Source of the DNA: Hamadaea sp.
Lineage (GTDB): Bacteria; Actinomycetota; Actinomycetes; Mycobacteriales; Micromonosporaceae
Assembly (NCBI RefSeq): GCF_013362815.1
Contig: NZ_JABFVK010000112.1
Coordinates: forward strand, 1 to 53,680
Direction of reading: 5' to 3'
DNA: 53,680 nt
Every line of letters begins with the position of its first letter. Within the stretch, counting starts at the first letter, position 1. Shown here piece by piece: positions 38,468 through 46,284 of the stretch. The notes under the pieces are model-generated. The model did not search any database. It was not told the DNA's origin and saw nothing but the letters and a program-made list of their open reading frames with translations. The position numbers and the translations under genes were made by a program.

Positions 38468-39619
38468 TCACGGCAGCCGGGGCAGGATCTCGTCGGCGAA
38501 GATCAGATCGGGGTGCAGCAGGTGACACCGCGACACCCGGCCCGCCTGATCCGTCCGGGCCACCAGATCGGGCAGCTCTTTCGTGCACAGGTCGTCCGGC
38601 ACCCGCTTGCGGAACTCGCACCGCGGGTGGAAGGAGCAACCGGTCGGCAGGTTCAGCAGGCTCGGCGGCGTACCCGGGATGGGGTGCAGCCGCGTCGACT
38701 CGCCCGACACCGCCGGGATGCTCTCCAGCAGACCCCACGTGTACGGGTGCAGCGGCGAGCCCAGGATGTCCTTGACCGTGCCGTGCTCGACCGCCCGACC
38801 GCCGTACATGACCAGCACGTCGTCGGCGATCTCGGCCACGACGCCGAGGTCGTGGGTGATGAACAGGACGGCCGAGCCGAAGTCCTGCTGCAGGTCCGAG
38901 ATCAGGTCCAGGATCTGCGCCTGCACGGTCACGTCCAGGGCCGTGGTCGGCTCGTCCGCGATGAGCAGCTTCGGGTCGTTGACCAGCGCCATCGCGATCA
39001 TCACGCGCTGGCGCATACCGCCCGAGAACTGGTGCGGGAAGTCGTCCAGCCGACGCGACGGATTCGGGATGCCGACCCGGCCCAGCATGTCCGCGGCCCG
39101 CTTGCGGGCCACCCGCTTGGAGACGTTGTTGTGCGCCTGGTACGCCTCGACGATCTGATCGCCGACCTTGTAGAACGGGTGCAGTGACGACTGCGGATCC
39201 TGGAAGATCATCGCCGACGCCTTGCCCCGCACGTGCCGCAGCTCTTCGGGCGGCAGCCCGACGATCTCGCGTCCGCCGAGCCGGATCGAACCCGTCATCC
39301 GGGTGCTCTTCGGATCGTGCAGACCCATGATCGCCATGCTGGACACGCTCTTGCCCGAACCGGACTCGCCGACGACCGCCAGCGTCTTGCCGAGCTCGAG
39401 CGAGTACGTCAGGCCCTGCACCGCCTTGACCACGCCGTCGGCGGTCGGGAACGCCACCGTCAGATCCCGCAGATTCAGGTAGGGCTCGCCCTCACCCTGA
39501 ACGGCCGCGCGTTCGGCCCGCGGGCCTCGGACGACGGTCTGGGGTCCACGCGGTTGCGGTGTGGCGCCGCCGCCGGAGATGGTGGACGCGTCGACCGCGT
39601 CACCCCACATTTCGCTCAT
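38468..39619 (-). CDS. Oligopeptide ABC transporter ATP-binding protein (OppD/DppD-like)
   Basis: 383 residues from the ATG at 39619, which overlaps the OppB stop in ATGA; the longer open frame upstream is a shadow of oppB. Walker A GESGSGKSV, Q-loop MIFQDPQSSLHPFYKV, signature FSGGMRQRVMIAMAL, Walker B KLLIADEPTTALD and H-loop FITHDLGVVAEIAD, then the oligo_HPY domain with the cysteine pattern CSFHPRCEFR, DDLC and RCHLLH. An N-terminal extension of about 45 residues (Gly/Pro/Arg-rich) precedes the nucleotide-binding domain and is longer than usual. It pairs with the OppF-like subunit as a heterodimer. Confidence 0.94.
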   Translation of the reverse strand: MSEMWGDAVDASTISGGGATPQPRGPQTVVRGPRAERAAVQGEGEPYLNLRDLTVAFPTADGVVKAVQGLTYSLELGKTLAVVGESGSGKSVSSMAIMGLHDPKSTRMTGSIRLGGREIVGLPPEELRHVRGKASAMIFQDPQSSLHPFYKVGDQIVEAYQAHNNVSKRVARKRAADMLGRVGIPNPSRRLDDFPHQFSGGMRQRVMIAMALVNDPKLLIADEPTTALDVTVQAQILDLISDLQQDFGSAVLFITHDLGVVAEIADDVLVMYGGRAVEHGTVKDILGSPLHPYTWGLLESIPAVSGESTRLHPIPGTPPSLLNLPTGCSFHPRCEFRKRVPDDLCTKELPDLVARTDQAGRVSRCHLLHPDLIFADEILPRLP

Positions 39620-40605
39620 GCGAGCCTCACCCGGGGATCGAGGACCGTGTAGAGAAGGTCGACCAGCAGGTTGATCAGTACGAGGACGACGACGCCGATC
39701 AGGGCTCCACCCATCAGGACCGGCAGGTCGTACTGGTTGAACGCCCGGAGGGTGAGGAGACCCAGTCCGGGAAGACCGAAGATCGTCTCGGTGAACAGGG
39801 CACCCGTCAATGCGAAGGCGACGTCCAAACCGAAGATCGTGGCGATCGGCGTCATGGCCGACCGCAGGGCGTGCCGGTACACGACACGGCGCTCGGTGAT
39901 GCCCTTGGACCGCGCCGTCCGCACATAGTCCTCGCCGAGCGACTCGATCATCGACCCTCGCGAATATCGCGTATAGGAGGCGCTGTTCACGATGCCCAGC
40001 ACGAGCCATGGGAGGAGGAGTCCGGCGAACCAACTCAGGGGGTTCTCGGTGAGCGGCGTCCAGTGGGCCTTCGGGATGAAGGGCAGGAACTGCGGGACGT
40101 AAAGCGCCGCGACCAGGGCGACGACGAAGTACGGGACCGAGCCGACGACCAGCGTGCCACCGACCATGAACCGGTCGAGGGAGGTGCCCCGGCGGCGCGC
40201 GGCGAAGGTGCCCGCGGCGACCCCGATGATCAGGTACGCGATGGCGGAGCCGAAGACGATGGAGATGGTGATCGGCAAGGCCTGGCCGAGCAGCTTCGTG
40301 ACCGGCTGGCCGAGCGCGTACGAGTAACCCAGGCACGGGGCCGAGCACTCGATGGTGACGCCGCCGGAGGTGAACGTCCGGCCGACGAACAGGCCCTGGA
40401 AGTAGCCGAGCATCTGCTGATAGAACGGCTCGTTCAGATGCAGGCTCTTGTAGATCTCCTCGTAGCGCGCGGGAGTGCACTTCGGACCGCAGATGACGCC
40501 GGCGGGATCGGTAGGCGCCAGATAGAACAGCCCGAAGGTGGCCACCAGGGTCACGAATATGACCGAGACGGCGCTGGCGAGCCGCCGCAGGATGTAGAGG
40601 AGCAC
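39616..40605 (-). CDS. Oligopeptide ABC transporter permease (OppB/DppB-like)
   Basis: 329 residues. N-terminal helix MLLYILRRLASAVSVIFVTLVATFGL, a roughly 75-residue extracytoplasmic loop with three cysteines (ICGPKC, ECSAPCLG) and then five more helices. The cytoplasmic EAA loop (SLGEDYVRTARSKGITERRVVYRHALR) is the contact for the ATPases. GALFTETIFGLPGLG is characteristic of the DppB/OppB family. It forms the translocation channel with the OppC-like subunit. The gene overlaps the next one by 4 bp, indicating coupled translation, and follows the binding-protein gene by 97 bp. Confidence 0.94.
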   Translation of the reverse strand: MLLYILRRLASAVSVIFVTLVATFGLFYLAPTDPAGVICGPKCTPARYEEIYKSLHLNEPFYQQMLGYFQGLFVGRTFTSGGVTIECSAPCLGYSYALGQPVTKLLGQALPITISIVFGSAIAYLIIGVAAGTFAARRRGTSLDRFMVGGTLVVGSVPYFVVALVAALYVPQFLPFIPKAHWTPLTENPLSWFAGLLLPWLVLGIVNSASYTRYSRGSMIESLGEDYVRTARSKGITERRVVYRHALRSAMTPIATIFGLDVAFALTGALFTETIFGLPGLGLLTLRAFNQYDLPVLMGGALIGVVVLVLINLLVDLLYTVLDPRVRLA

Positions 40606-40702: not shown

Positions 40703-42433
40703 TTACTTGACGTACATGTTGCAGAAGAACGGCATACCCATGGTGCCGTCACCCTCAGCGCCGCCGACGCTGGTACCGACGACGAAGGCGAGCTTGTCGT
40801 AGTACCGCGGGATGGCGATGTACATCCCCATGATCTTCTCGTCGAGCTCGGCCCACTTCTTGGTGGACTCGTCGCCCGGCAGGTTCGCCACCGAGTCGAT
40901 CTCCGAGTCGAGCTGCTTGTCGCTCAGCATGCCCCAGCTGGAGCCGTCCGAGATGCTGTGCGACTGGAACAGCACCGGGAACCAGCTACCACCGGTCGGC
41001 CAGTCCGAGCACCAGCCGGCGGGCGACTGGCCCGTGTTGACCGGAGCGTCGTAGTCGGACAGCTTGCTGCGCAGCTCGGCGGTGGTGACACCGACGGGCT
41101 TGACCGTGAAGCCGGCCTTCTCGAGGGCCTCCTTACGGATCTGGGTGGTCTGCTGCGGGATCGGCTTGGTGTTGTCGTAGTACCAGCTCACCTCGAAGCC
41201 GAGCTTGCCGGCGGCCTCCAGCAGCTTCTTCGCGCCCTCAGGGTCACCCTTGCCCTCACCGGTCAGGTCCGCGATCGGCTGGTACTTCTTGTAGCCGGCC
41301 ACGCTGGGCGGCAGGATCGTCGTCGACGGCTCGGCGATGTACGGGTTGAGACCGGCGGCCTGCCAGATCTGGTCGTACGGGTACGCCTTGGCGATCGCCT
41401 TGCGAACCTCCAGCGGGATCTTCCGGGTGTCCATCTGGAAGACGATGTTGCAGGGGCTGTCGCCCTGAACGAGCTGGTTCTTCTTGCCACCCTCGATGTC
41501 GGGGATGAGCGAAGCGTCGATGTTCGCGTAGTTCAGCGAAGCGGCGTCAGCGCCGGCGCTGGCCAGAACCTGCTTCTGGTTCGCGACGTCGTCCACGCCC
41601 CACTTGAAGTCCCAGCCGTCGACGTACTGGTGCCGAACGGCGTCCGTGCCGGCGTCCCAGTTCGGGTTCTTCTTCAGCTTCAGCTGCGTACCGGGGGTGT
41701 ACGAGTCGAGCATGTACGGGCCGGTCGAGATCCACTTGTTCTTGTAGTTGTCCTTGGTGTCCTTGGCCTTCGGGATGGGGGTGAACATCGGGAAGGTCAT
41801 GTACCAGGGCAGGTCGTTGAACTGCTTGGCCAGGTGGATGATCAGGGTGTCGGTGCCCTGGGTCTCCACGCCGGAGTACGCGTCACCGCTCGCCCACGGG
41901 CCCTTGTACTTGTCGCCGTCCTTGAAGTAGGTCAGCTGGTACGTCGGGCCGTTGGAGAACAGGTCGTGCGCGAACGACCGCTTGATCGCGTACGCGAAGT
42001 CCTCGATCTTGACCTCGCTGCCGTCCTCGTACTTGAACGTGCCCTTCGTCTTGAAGGTCCACGTCAGGCCGTCGGCCGACTTGGTGCCCAGGTCCATCAT
42101 GTCGGGGACCAGGACGGCCTTGCCGTTGCGCAGCGCGATCTGGGTCGGCGTACGCCACATCAGCTTGCCGATTTCGTTCGAGTCGACGTAGTAGACGTCG
42201 GTGGGGTCGAACGTGTTGGGCGTCGACTGGGAGTAGACCGTCAGGGTCCCACCCTTCTTGGCCCCCGCGACCTCCGGCGCCGGACCCTTGGCGTCCGGGT
42301 CCATCGCGGTCTCCGCCGCACCGATCTTGCTGGTCGGGTCGGTGCCACTGGGCCCACTCTTCGACGGGCTACAGCCCACCGCGGCGAGCGCGATGACCGC
42401 GCCCACGACGACGGTTGTTCTCAGTCGCCTCAC
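40703..42433 (-). CDS. Oligopeptide-binding lipoprotein (SBP_bac_5, OppA/DppA-like)
   Basis: 576 residues. Lipobox ALAAVGC (Cys21) marks it as a membrane-anchored lipoprotein. Family 5 binding-protein landmarks: GGTLTVYSQSTPNTFDPTDVYYVDSN, LTWTFKTKGTFKYEDGSEVKIEDFAYAIKRS, TGPYMLDSYTPGTQLKLKKNP and VRKAIAKAYPYDQIW. It captures the substrate, probably peptides, for the OppB/OppC channel. Amide- and lysine-rich surface segments and a slightly different codon style from the flanking genes were noted, but the signal is weak. It lies between the two permease genes, an uncommon place; 40 bp separates it from oppC and 97 bp from oppB. Confidence 0.94.
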   Translation of the reverse strand: MRRLRTTVVVGAVIALAAVGCSPSKSGPSGTDPTSKIGAAETAMDPDAKGPAPEVAGAKKGGTLTVYSQSTPNTFDPTDVYYVDSNEIGKLMWRTPTQIALRNGKAVLVPDMMDLGTKSADGLTWTFKTKGTFKYEDGSEVKIEDFAYAIKRSFAHDLFSNGPTYQLTYFKDGDKYKGPWASGDAYSGVETQGTDTLIIHLAKQFNDLPWYMTFPMFTPIPKAKDTKDNYKNKWISTGPYMLDSYTPGTQLKLKKNPNWDAGTDAVRHQYVDGWDFKWGVDDVANQKQVLASAGADAASLNYANIDASLIPDIEGGKKNQLVQGDSPCNIVFQMDTRKIPLEVRKAIAKAYPYDQIWQAAGLNPYIAEPSTTILPPSVAGYKKYQPIADLTGEGKGDPEGAKKLLEAAGKLGFEVSWYYDNTKPIPQQTTQIRKEALEKAGFTVKPVGVTTAELRSKLSDYDAPVNTGQSPAGWCSDWPTGGSWFPVLFQSHSISDGSSWGMLSDKQLDSEIDSVANLPGDESTKKWAELDEKIMGMYIAIPRYYDKLAFVVGTSVGGAEGDGTMGMPFFCNMYVK

Positions 42434-42472: not shown

Positions 42473-43489
42473 CTAGCGGCGGGTCTTGGGGTCGAACGCA
42501 TCACGGACGGCATCGCCGAGCAGGCTCAGGGCGAGGACGAGGATCGTGATGCCTAGCACGGGCACCCACAGCCACAAGGGGTAGGTGTCGTAGTAGTTCT
42601 GCGCGGAGGCGATGGTGACGCCCCAGGACGGCGTGGGGTCCATCAACCCGACGCCGAGGAAGGTGAGACCCGCTTCGGCCACGATGTAACCGGGCAGGGC
42701 GAGTGAGGCGGAGACGACGATCGGCGCGATGAGGTTCGGGAGCAGTTCCCGGAAAAGGACCCGGCGCGTGGGTACGCCCAGGACGCGCGCGGCCGCGATG
42801 AACTCCCGTTCCCGCAGGGAGAGGACCTGACCCCGGATGAGCCGGGCCAGGCCGGCCCAGCCGAAGAAGGACAGGACCAGGATCAGCGAGATGAACCGGA
42901 CCCGGGCGACCTGCTCGGGTGAGGTTCCCTCGGAACCGCCGTAGATCACGGAGATGATGACGGCCGGGGTCGCGATCGCGAAGATCAGGTAGGGCAGGCT
43001 CAGGATGAAGTCGATGACCCAGGAGAGGACCCGGTCGATCCAGCCGCTGAAGAAGCCGGCGATCAGTCCCAGCACCACGCCGAGGATGGTCGTGACGACC
43101 GTGACGATGCCGGCGACCAGCAGCGACGGCCGGGCGCCGTAGACCCAGCGGGCGAACAGGTCGCGGCCGAGGCGCGGCTCGACGCCGAACCAGTGGTCGC
43201 TGCTCGCTCCCGAGTACGGGAAGGTCGTGCGCTTGTCGATCAGGTCGAAGTTGTAGCTGGTCGGGTCCTGACCCTCCAGCTTGGCGAGCAACGGCGCGAA
43301 GATGGCCACCAGCACGAAGAACACGAAGATACCCAGGCAGGTCATGGCGACCTTGTCCTTGCGCAGCCGCTCCAACGCGATCCGCGTGGGCGACCGGCTC
43401 ACGGACGGTCCCGGTTTGGCGGGGCCCGACGTCACCCCGACCTGTGGCGGTTCGGTCAGTGTTTCGGTCCCAGTGATCACCGGTTCCAC
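42473..43489 (-). CDS. Oligopeptide ABC transporter permease (OppC/DppC-like), first gene of operon
   Basis: 338 residues from the GTG at 43489 with GGAGGTG 6 bases upstream. A cytoplasmic N-terminal tail (about 40 residues) precedes the first helix VAMTCLGIFVFFVLVAIFAPLLA. A periplasmic loop with HWFGVEPRLGRDLFARWVYGARPSL, the hallmark of OppC/DppC, is followed by five helices. The EAA loop is EFIAAARVLGVPTRRVLFRELLPN. EAGLTFLGVGLMDPTPSWG closes the protein. The operon order is therefore C-A-B-D-F. Its promoter lies in the 400-bp gap shared with the divergent HxlR-peroxiredoxin gene. Confidence 0.94.
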   Translation of the reverse strand: MEPVITGTETLTEPPQVGVTSGPAKPGPSVSRSPTRIALERLRKDKVAMTCLGIFVFFVLVAIFAPLLAKLEGQDPTSYNFDLIDKRTTFPYSGASSDHWFGVEPRLGRDLFARWVYGARPSLLVAGIVTVVTTILGVVLGLIAGFFSGWIDRVLSWVIDFILSLPYLIFAIATPAVIISVIYGGSEGTSPEQVARVRFISLILVLSFFGWAGLARLIRGQVLSLREREFIAAARVLGVPTRRVLFRELLPNLIAPIVVSASLALPGYIVAEAGLTFLGVGLMDPTPSWGVTIASAQNYYDTYPLWLWVPVLGITILVLALSLLGDAVRDAFDPKTRR

Positions 43490-43889
43490 GGAGCACCTCC
43501 AGCCGACGTACATAGAGCGGCCGACGGGAATTCCGTTGACAGCCACGTCCCCCGCGCCTTTGCGCAAAGCTAACGCTCAGCTTCGAGGTTTTGAGTAACG
43601 GATCAATCACGAATCAGTCGAATAATGATCTCGTGATCATCACTGGCCCATTCGCCGACCCGCCGCCTGACTGACTAGGTCTACTCATCGTCTGCGCAGG
43701 ACAGATGGGGGCCTACAGTGGAAAGCGGCTGAATCTCGGGTCAGTTGTCAAGCCCGCGGCATCGTCACAGGAACGTTACACTTGCCGTCCGCGCGGGTCA
43801 GCTGGCGTCAGACCGACCGGCTACTGTCGATGCCCCTCGCCGATGCTGTAGGTTCCCCGCAGGAACCCACTCGTCGGCTCGGAGATGAC
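43490..43889. promoter_or_regulatory. 400-bp divergent intergenic region, opp operon and HxlR-peroxiredoxin gene
   Basis: No gene is supported here. It holds two small palindromes, CTTTGCGCAAAG at 43558-43569 and ATGATC-TCGT-GATCAT at 43625-43640. An AT-richer stretch runs from about 43600 to 43640. CGGAGATGAC ends at 43889, just before the regulator ATG. Either palindrome could be a binding site for the regulator, but no evidence distinguishes them. No sigma-70-type pair of good match and spacing was found. Confidence 0.5.
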
Positions 43890-44759
43890 ATGCCGCGGAA
43901 CAGTTGGTCGCCCGACGCCTCGTGCGGGGTCGCCCAAACGGTCAATGTCCTCGGCGACGGCTGGAGCCTGCTCATTCTGCGCGACATCGCCCGTGGCCAC
44001 CAGCGTTTCGACGACCTCGTGACCGAGCTGCGCATCTCTCGCAAAGTCCTCACCGAACGCCTGACCGGGCTCATCGCCGACGGCGTACTGCGGCGGGAAC
44101 CGTATCAGACCGCGCCGGTGCGGTATGCGTACGAACTGACGGCGGCCGGCCGTGATCTCCTGGGGGTGGTCGTCGCGCTGCAGGACTGGGGCGACCGGTG
44201 GCTCCTCGGGGACGGCTCCCTCACCGCCACCGACGACGAGGATTCCGCTACCGCTCAACGCGTACGCGATCTGGTCGGGGTGGTGGCACCGGTGGTCCGG
44301 CTGCCGGGGACCGACGGCATCGAGACGGACGCCCTCGCCGGACCCGCCGTCGTCTTCACCTATCCCGCGACCGGTACGCCCACTCCCCTGCCGTCCGGGT
44401 GGGGAGAGATACCCGGGGCGGTCGGCTGCACTCTCGAGAACCGGCTCTTCCGCACGGCGTATCCCCGCCTGGAGACAGCGGGGATCGCGGTGCGGGGGGT
44501 GAGCACGCAGCGGCCGGACGAGCAGCTGGTCTTCGCGACGGCCGAGAGCCTGCCCTTCACCCTGCTCAGCGACGTCGACCTGCGCTTGACCGCGGCCTTG
44601 CGCCTGCCCGTGTTCCGCGCGGGCGAGCGGCATCGGCTGAAGCGGCTGATCCTCGTGATCGCCGCTGATCGGACTATTCGGGCGGTCCGGTACCCGGCGG
44701 GCGACATCGCGGCCGCGGTCGACTGGGCCGTGGAAACCGCACTGACCCTTGGTCGCTAG
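43890..44759 (+). CDS. HxlR-type regulator fused to a peroxiredoxin-like domain
   Basis: 289 residues from the ATG at 43890 (GGAG 5 bases upstream). Residues 1-110 are an HxlR winged helix: Cys12 in DASCGVAQTVNVLGDGWSLLILRDI, the position where redox-sensing members such as HypR and YodB have their sensor cysteine, then the wing EPYQTAPVRYAYELTAAG. Residues about 130-289 are a peroxiredoxin of the AhpC/TSA type: AGPAVVFTYPATG, the peroxidatic-type Cys180 in GWGEIPGAVGCTLENRLFR, AVRGVSTQ, LPFTLLSD and LKRLILVIAADRTIRAV. The resolving cysteine seen five residues later in related stand-alone proteins is an Arg here, so it would be a one-Cys form. The fusion suggests a peroxide- or electrophile-sensing regulator. 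The divergent opp operon and its own gene are plausible targets. No thioredoxin-like partner is nearby. Confidence 0.85.
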   Translation: MPRNSWSPDASCGVAQTVNVLGDGWSLLILRDIARGHQRFDDLVTELRISRKVLTERLTGLIADGVLRREPYQTAPVRYAYELTAAGRDLLGVVVALQDWGDRWLLGDGSLTATDDEDSATAQRVRDLVGVVAPVVRLPGTDGIETDALAGPAVVFTYPATGTPTPLPSGWGEIPGAVGCTLENRLFRTAYPRLETAGIAVRGVSTQRPDEQLVFATAESLPFTLLSDVDLRLTAALRLPVFRAGERHRLKRLILVIAADRTIRAVRYPAGDIAAAVDWAVETALTLGR

Positions 44760-44937: not shown

Positions 44938-46284
44938 ATGTCCGCGTTCACCCCAGGCCAACGGATTCACGAGCGGTTCATCCTGCGGGAACTGATCGGA
45001 CGCGGCGGGATGTCGGAGGTCTGGCGCGCGACCGACACCGTGCTCGGCCGCCCCGTCGCGGTGAAGGCGCTCGACGCCTCGCTGGCCGCCGATCCGACGC
45101 TGTGGCAGGCGACGCTGCGAGAAGCCCGCGCGATCGCCCGGATCGCCCATCCGAACGTGGCGCAGGTGCACGACTACGGCGAGGTGCCCACCGCGAACGG
45201 GCACATTCCGTACCTGGTCATGGAGTACGTCGAGGGTCCGACGCTGGCCGACCGGCTGCGCTCCGGTCACCTGCCACCTGCTGAGGCCGCCTCGATCGCA
45301 GCGCAGGTCGCGGCGGGTCTGGCCGAGGCGCACCGGCTGGGTGTGGTGCACCGCGACGTCAAGCCGGGCAACATCATGCTGACCACGGCCGGAGTGAAGA
45401 TCCTGGACTTCGGCATCGCGACGCTCGCGCATGGTCCCGACGCGGACGGCGGGCGGCTCATCGGCACGCCCACCTACACCGCGCCGGAACGGATGCAGCC
45501 CGGGACGGCCACCCCGGCCGCCGACGTGTACGCCCTCGGAGTCGTGCTCTACGAGCTGCTCACCGGCCACCCGCCGCGGGCGTACGCCGATTGGCAGCAA
45601 GCGCTCGCCGCCCCGCCCGCCGAGGTACGCCCGATCGACCGGCCCGGGGTTCCGGCCAAGCTCGCCGCCCTGACGATGGCGTGCCTGTCCACCGATCCGG
45701 CTCGGCGACCGAGCGCCGCCGAGCTGGCCGCCGACCTGTCGAGCACGTCCCGGCCGTTCGCCGCGGGCGTCGCAAGAGCGGTCCCAGCAACGCAGACCCC
45801 GCCGACGATGGTCGCGTCGTTGCCACCGGCTCCGGCCCGGCGCTCGTGGCTGCTCCCGGCCTTCCTCGTCACCGGCGGCGCGTTGGTCGTCCTGCTCGTC
45901 GCGATGCTGGTCTACAGCTTCCTGGATCGGTCTCCGACCACTCCACCGCAGGGCTCCGGCTCGAACTCCAGTGCGTCGGCCACCTCGCCCTCGGCGGAAC
46001 CGAGCCCATCACCGTCCACTGCGGAGTCCAAGTCGCCGGACGAGCTGCTGGACGAGATCGCGGCGGTGGTCTCGGCCGCCGATCTCCCCGCAAATCGGGC
46101 ACGTGACCTGCAACGGAAGCTGTCGGATCTGCGGGAGAAGGTCGACGAGGAGCCGGACGACGCGGGCGGGAAGATCGACGACTTCCGCAAGAAGGTGACC
46201 GATCTGGTCGACGACGGCCAGCTCGACACCGCGACCGGCGACCAGCTCGTGGCTCTGCTCGACCAGTTGGCCGACGCGCTGTAG
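44938..46284 (+). CDS. Membrane Ser/Thr protein kinase (PknB-like), C-terminal helical ectodomain
   Basis: 448 residues. Kinase domain about 12-275: GRGGMSEVW (glycine-rich loop), Lys43 in VAVKALD, HRDVKPGN (catalytic Asp140), DFG (Asp157) and the GTPTYTAPE activation segment, all intact. A Pro/Ala juxtamembrane linker leads to one membrane helix (LLPAFLVTGGALVVLLVAMLVYSFL, about 305-330) and a Ser/Pro stalk. The extracellular part (about 365-448, SPDELLDEIAAVVSAADL...) is a short helical bundle, resembling FIVAR-type modules rather than the PASTA repeats of PknB. Its signal is unknown. The ABC exporter gene follows 104 bp downstream on the same strand. Confidence 0.93.
   Translation: MSAFTPGQRIHERFILRELIGRGGMSEVWRATDTVLGRPVAVKALDASLAADPTLWQATLREARAIARIAHPNVAQVHDYGEVPTANGHIPYLVMEYVEGPTLADRLRSGHLPPAEAASIAAQVAAGLAEAHRLGVVHRDVKPGNIMLTTAGVKILDFGIATLAHGPDADGGRLIGTPTYTAPERMQPGTATPAADVYALGVVLYELLTGHPPRAYADWQQALAAPPAEVRPIDRPGVPAKLAALTMACLSTDPARRPSAAELAADLSSTSRPFAAGVARAVPATQTPPTMVASLPPAPARRSWLLPAFLVTGGALVVLLVAMLVYSFLDRSPTTPPQGSGSNSSASATSPSAEPSPSPSTAESKSPDELLDEIAAVVSAADLPANRARDLQRKLSDLREKVDEEPDDAGGKIDDFRKKVTDLVDDGQLDTATGDQLVALLDQLADAL

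Follow-up and report, generated by a model that had tools for sequence, protein, structure and literature searches.

A DNA stretch of 53,680 nt (the window) from Hamadaea sp., a soil actinobacterium, encodes a 289-residue protein in which an HxlR winged-helix domain and a peroxiredoxin domain of the PrxQ/BCP class are joined in one chain. Here, we propose that this protein is a thiol-switch transcription factor, namely an HxlR repressor fused to a former PrxQ-type peroxidase, which is released from its predicted operator upon oxidation of Cys180. We regard this reading as the probable one, although with considerable reserve. The domains, the fold, the conserved cysteines, the apparent loss of a resolving cysteine, the predicted operator, and the linked and unlinked candidate targets were computed in this study. 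The positions of the features are listed in Table 1.

Table 1 Positions of the regulator, its parts, and the neighboring features in the window
Feature	Position	Strand	Basis
HxlR–peroxiredoxin fusion regulator, 289 aa	43890–44759	+	Open frame, Pfam, orthologues, AlphaFold model
HxlR winged-helix DNA-binding domain, residues 20–105	43947–44204	+	PF01638 (E 1.3e-22); PDB profile matches
PrxQ/BCP-like peroxiredoxin domain, residues 131–264	44280–44681	+	PF00578, PF08534, PDB profile, Foldseek, alignment
Cys12 codon	43923–43925	+	13/13 relatives, 81/81 rows; also 16/17 HxlR-only paralogues
Cys180 codon, peroxidatic-type, in PGAVGCTLE; +5 residue is Arg185	44427–44429	+	13/13 relatives, 81/81 rows
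Predicted operator, TGTAGGTTCC-CCGCA-GGAACCCACT	43847–43871	.	Core GTTCC-N5-GGAAC at 43852–43866; conserved in G003
OppC-like permease, divergent peptide-import operon; unlikely direct target	42473–43567	-	Pfam OppC_N, BPD_transp_1
Family 5 extracellular solute-binding protein, same importer; unlikely target	40703–42433	-	Pfam SBP_bac_5
Permease of the peptide-import operon	39616–40605		

The original prediction that one reading frame joins an HxlR winged helix to a peroxiredoxin-type domain is confirmed by the open frame, the Pfam matches, and the orthologues. The PF01638 match scores 79.9 bits against a gathering score of 20.8, which places the protein in the HxlR family. The matches to AhpC-TSA (PF00578, residues 179–264, E 5.9e-9) and Redoxin (PF08534, residues 131–260, E 1.5e-6) are also above the Pfam cut-offs, and the scores with the NCBIfam models RrpB and RrpA are far under theirs. 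The longest possible frame starts at TTG 43782. We instead place the predicted start codon at ATG 43890, based on where the operator lies and on homology with G003, which belongs to the same genus. In G003, the fusion is 83% identical and the gene order is unchanged. Full-length matches were found in 13 of the 61 genomes searched (the window's own counted), covering 11 genera of one family. A sequencing join of two separate genes is ruled out, since G003 and another 11 genomes, the window's own not counted, carry the fusion too. Downstream of the regulator lies a gene for a membrane-type Ser/Thr protein kinase (44938–46284, Pfam Pkinase).

Named genomes were also scanned, and of the 390 relatives confirmed in this way, the best 80 were retrieved; together with the window, they constitute the 81 rows or loci referred to below. 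These best 80 of the 390 are mostly from Streptomyces and Kribbella, with others from Kitasatospora, Micromonospora, Catellatospora, Nonomuraea, Sphaerisporangium, and further genera. The 81 loci include many close relatives and are not 81 independent events, and four loci of the separate set of 13 relatives seem to recur in the named set (L003/L074, L004/L069, L005/L077, and L006/L092).

The AlphaFold model of the fusion, built from 51 alignment rows, has a mean pLDDT of 93.5 and a pTM of 0.90. The top Foldseek matches of its C-terminal part are PrxQ/BCP enzymes (5enu, E 7.5e-10, TM 0.81; 5epf, TM 0.83; TM by target length). When a profile of the 51 fusions was compared with the PDB, HxlR proteins (4gcv, 2f2e, HxlR, YodB, and HypR/YybR) matched within residues 1–145 at most, and the matches to peroxiredoxins began at about residue 121 (5epf, E 1.2e-17). 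Of the 52 PDB chains listed for this profile, not one covers both parts. In the model, the C-terminal domain has a peroxiredoxin fold of the PrxQ/BCP class. The thioredoxin-type fold expected for this part is thus borne out by the model and the Foldseek matches, which rule out a C-terminal part of another fold. BcpB (5epf) and Xanthomonas PrxQ (5iiz) share with the fusion the fold, a peroxidatic-type cysteine at the N-terminal end of a helix, and a conserved arginine. The latter, Arg252, is common to canonical PrxQ proteins and invariant in the 51-row alignment. Unlike these enzymes, the fusion has a DNA-binding domain and an active-site loop that is ~16 residues longer, and its members mostly have no resolving cysteine at the +5 position. 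Aligned with three canonical PrxQ proteins, the loop of the window protein reads YPATGTP, then the ~16 extra residues, then GC; with this stretch between TP and GC, it departs from the canonical PxxxTxxC spacing. The insertion is common to free-standing relatives of the domain too.

The window protein contains exactly two cysteines, Cys12 and Cys180. Both are kept in all 13 relatives and in all 81 rows, as predicted, with the qualification that the pattern scan behind 80 of these rows used the Cys180 motif as one of its two patterns. In a class-wide protein search made without this motif, Cys180 was present in 12/12 HxlR fusions, and the equivalent of Cys12 in 11/11 fusions with an intact N terminus. 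Cys12 and Cys180 are the sole invariant cysteines of the 51-row alignment. Cys180 is of the peroxidatic type, as predicted, and there is indeed no resolving cysteine five residues after it, where Arg185 is found. As to Cys12, it had been assigned to the classical redox-sensor position. It does provide the conserved N-terminal cysteine of thiol-switch HxlR regulators of the YodB/HypR type, and it is conserved in the fusions; however, an N-terminal cysteine is also present in 16 of the 17 HxlR-only paralogues. Cys12 as a fusion-specific feature is ruled out by this count, and by sequence comparison it is a trait of the HxlR family. Because it is family-wide, its conservation is no argument for a Cys12–Cys180 bond.

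According to PMC6943732, conserved N-terminal cysteines allow HypR, YodB, and CatR to respond to HOCl, quinones, and diamide. By analogy, Cys12 alone may be the sensor, with the redoxin domain merely aiding dimerization or stability, and the retention of Cys12 in the fusions and in 16 of the 17 paralogues agrees with such a role. We consider it unlikely. For a purely structural domain, there would be no need to keep Cys180, its loop, and Arg252 without any change across 51 diverse rows, and the same redoxin subfamily has been joined to an unrelated DNA-binding family.

The nearest relatives of the C-terminal domain of the fusion are free-standing redoxins of the IPGARGCTPxSCxFRD type. They have the same loop insertion, have no DNA-binding domain, and carry the +5 cysteine in 27 of 28 cases. 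In seven proteins (L162, L163, L164, L166, L169, L170, and L171), the same redoxin subfamily is joined to a MerR domain (PF13411, E 6.8e-12 to 1.5e-14). The MerR–redoxin fusions retain the +5 cysteine and have two conserved cysteines within the MerR part; no conservation was seen by eye in the genes around them. In a tree of rows thinned at 80% identity, the HxlR-fused rows form one group, with the HxlR-less L148 nested inside it, and the MerR-fused rows are found elsewhere with the free-standing ones. Therefore, fusions of this redoxin subfamily exist with two unrelated DNA-binding families, and the MerR fusion supports a sensor role for the domain. L148 seems to have lost its DNA-binding part. 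In L168 (1453–2385), a MerR-like stretch is located just upstream of a MerR-group redoxin, and the two do not form one open frame. For the tree, L132, L133, and L156 (the same gene as L169) were excluded, L126 and L157 were entered as L170 and L171, and L146 was counted as HxlR-fused because of an HxlR remnant upstream. Seven loci outside the motif filter (L126, L128, L131, L132, L152, L154, and L157) were inspected separately.

Among the non-redundant rows, the +5 resolving cysteine of PrxQ is present in 9/53 HxlR-fused, 27/28 free-standing, 7/7 MerR-fused, and 3/3 canonical PrxQ proteins, and it is absent from the other 44 HxlR fusions. On a tree built with the trait columns left out, the trait changed at least three times within the HxlR-fused rows and once outside them, as counts that cannot separate gain from loss. 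We read the change within the HxlR fusions as loss, not gain, because the free-standing and canonical rows have the cysteine. The "one-Cys" label of the original prediction suits the window protein; however, it describes a derived state, since nine of the HxlR fusions and nearly all of the free-standing redoxins keep the +5 residue. The missing cysteine in most fusions would fit the conversion of an enzyme into a sensor. If the redoxin domain were instead a working peroxidase carried on the regulator, the protein would be bifunctional, and thioredoxin or mycoredoxin would reduce Cys180 as in one-Cys peroxiredoxins. The PrxQ-like fold and active-site residues are compatible with turnover, and the nine fusions that keep the +5 cysteine could be turnover enzymes. 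Such a function is nevertheless improbable, given that the resolving cysteine is repeatedly missing from the fusions and that one or a few predicted operator sites per genome seem to suffice, as would be expected of a specific regulator.

The predicted operator before the regulator start is a palindrome with the consensus AGTNAGTTCC-N5-GGAACTNACT. The perfect core occurs once in the whole window (0.02 expected), and G003 also has it. Within 200 nt upstream of the regulator, the core was found with up to one mismatch in 73/81 loci versus 22/4807 control tiles, and with up to two mismatches in 79/81 loci versus 343/4807 tiles. The control tiles were 203 nt long and drawn from the same sources as the loci. 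Upstream of the 13 relatives, the core is present in 10 with up to one mismatch and in all with up to two; the corresponding figures for the HxlR-only paralogues are 3/17 and 6/17. Because three of the 17 paralogues have the core with no more than one mismatch, the operator may also serve regulators other than the fusion. In L017, a perfect core palindrome (GTTCCCTCAGGGAAC) lies ahead of an HxlR-only gene without a redoxin domain. In most loci, the site is 21–100 nt ahead of the regulator start, often immediately before TACTATGG, and this position suggests repression as the mode of action. HxlR regulators bind a short palindrome close to their own or a divergent promoter; for the window protein, such binding is predicted from a strongly conserved palindrome. 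Two tandem operator-like palindromes were noticed by eye upstream of the regulator in seven Streptomyces loci (L079, L081, L082, L086, L088, L097, and L099); six of the seven were assigned to the enolase neighbor cluster, for which L081 and L086 are given as exceptions.

The regulator diverges from a peptide-import operon, as originally described, with genes for an OppC-like permease, a solute-binding protein, and a further permease. That this operon is the target is a very remote prospect. It is adjacent and divergent, and it is retained in G003. However, the operator core sits 31 nt ahead of the regulator start codon and ~285 bp away from the start of the OppC-like gene, the window holds no other core palindrome, and among the loci examined the importer adjoins the regulator solely in the window and G003. 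Moreover, the importer is probably not the target because the palindrome precedes genes for an MFS exporter and a second enolase (enolase 2) elsewhere in the genome, which thus have the site in trans.

The candidate regulon of the window's genome (G000) was derived from pattern searches. The extended pattern TNAGTTCC-N5-GGAACTNA was sought with up to one mismatch in 10 genomes: three from the genus of the window and seven that contain named loci. Of these seven, six have a single match, which lies at the regulator, and the Nonomuraea genome has none at this threshold. G000 has two matches in trans, one 22 nt before the MFS exporter gene (C92) and the other 71 nt before the enolase 2 gene (C123). 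The window's own operator has two mismatches to the extended pattern and so stands outside this list. G003 carries both the MFS and the enolase 2 sites. In G001, weaker sites (two mismatches) precede the MFS and enolase 2 genes, and one extra one-mismatch site lies beside unrelated genes.

The two trans targets come from gene families that adjoin the regulator in other genomes. The G000 MFS protein is 59% identical to that encoded divergently to the regulator in Kribbella. The G000 enolase 2 family is 73% identical to the enolase divergent to the regulator in Streptomyces and only 58–59% identical to the housekeeping enolases of seven genomes. The nearest divergent gene in the 81 loci belongs to an MFS cluster in at least 18, to an ABC-2 permease cluster in at least 15, to an enolase cluster in at least 10, and to a second MFS cluster in at least 8, the counts being lower bounds (the gene caller missed the regulator in 24 of the 81 loci). 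One representative per cluster was confirmed by Pfam. No classical peroxide defense genes were found among the linked genes examined. MFS genes of the type in question have the site in 11/11 cases across nine fusion genomes and G002 (0–3 mismatches), and in 0/2 cases in fusion-free genomes (6 and 7 mismatches); for seven MFS genes in six of the former genomes, this site is also that of the regulator. For enolase 2, the site is present with up to two mismatches before 6 of 11 genes (G000, G001, G002, G003, G463, and G536). The five genes without it are from G013, G032, G165, and G489, which have no fusion, and from G454, which has the fusion and an unlinked enolase 2. Housekeeping enolases have the site in none of seven distinct genes (5–7 mismatches). 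A 63% match in G022 (7 mismatches) was excluded as not clearly enolase 2. The predicted sites suggest control of the regulator itself, a drug-type exporter, and a spare enolase rather than the peptide importer.

Several details of these genes were also observed. No fusion was found in G002, a draft genome of the same genus that is 87% complete, although the site is present before its MFS and enolase 2 genes; the regulator may be hidden in an assembly gap. Upstream of the enolase 2 genes of G454:C16, G489:C22, and G165:C1 (L220, L221, and L222), there is another repeated motif, ACAGCA with TGCTGT, as if these genes were under another regulator. Enolase 2 of G000 (L188) has Cys306 and Cys315 beside a metal-binding loop and is without the Cys357 of enolase 1 (L198). 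The presence of Cys306 and Cys315, which are absent from enolase 1, rules out enolase 2 as a cysteine-free copy.

The nature of the candidate targets bears on what is sensed. The redoxin domain may be a ligand pocket or an electrophile trap rather than a peroxide sensor, with the exporter and the enolase guarding against the sensed thiol-reactive or enolase-directed natural product. This is possible, though we would not call it likely. Genes linked to the operator encode exporters and an enolase rather than catalases or peroxidases, and the resolving cysteine is mostly absent. HxlR-type regulators such as YodB respond to quinones and diamide (PMC6943732, in excerpt), and the enolase inhibitor SF2312 is produced by a Micromonospora, as stated in an excerpt of PMC6863902. 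On the other hand, the loci of Kribbella and Micromonospora have no enolase linked to the regulator.

In the oxidation-triggered mechanism that we favor, the reduced dimer would bind AGTNAGTTCC-N5-GGAACTNACT over or beside promoters and would repress its own gene and a few targets, namely an exporter of the MFS or ABC-2 type, joined in some lineages by the second enolase. Cys180 of the redoxin domain would be oxidized by a peroxide or a different thiol-reactive compound. Without a resolving cysteine, the oxidized state would not be turned over in the domain; it would either persist or be handed on, perhaps in the form of a Cys12 disulfide or of a mixed disulfide with a small thiol. Because the window protein has no cysteine besides Cys12 and Cys180, an internal disulfide could only join these two; an inter-subunit bond or a mixed disulfide is as possible. 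The dimer would then leave the DNA, the exporter and the enolase would rise, and the level of the regulator would be reset. DNA binding, repression, oxidation of Cys180, and release are the steps that we infer here.

The fusion resembles the HxlR/DUF24 thiol-switch regulators of Bacillus (YodB, CatR, and HypR) in having a winged helix and an N-terminal redox-type cysteine. These proteins have about 105–131 residues (from the PDB list) and no second domain, whereas the fusion adds a peroxiredoxin domain of ~165 residues. In the yeast Orp1–Yap1 relay and in OhrR, a peroxidase-type or peroxide-reactive cysteine governs transcription. The peroxidase and the factor are separate proteins in Orp1–Yap1, and OhrR is a factor without a peroxiredoxin domain; in contrast, the window protein has the peroxiredoxin domain and the factor in one chain. 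Bacterial peroxide regulators mostly use metals or lone cysteines for sensing. A literature search of open-licence papers found no description of an HxlR–peroxiredoxin or MerR–redoxin fusion, and the fusion architecture may well be catalogued already in domain databases.

As a speculation that we hold to be rather doubtful in its full extent, a peroxidase may have turned into a sensor at least twice, with HxlR and with MerR, and the HxlR line may have given up the resolving cysteine for signaling. The output, an exporter and a second enolase, would then constitute a previously undescribed defense circuit against a thiol-reactive or enolase-directed compound of neighboring actinomycetes, in which efflux and a replacement enzyme are induced together. 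A regulator with a peroxidase-derived sensor in the same chain would be a natural test of enzyme-to-switch evolution, and living genomes hold the whole series: free-standing two-Cys, fused two-Cys, and fused one-Cys proteins. The predicted operator and the small candidate regulon make the sensor idea directly testable. The link with enolase 2 raises the question of which compound makes an actinobacterium swap a glycolytic enzyme.
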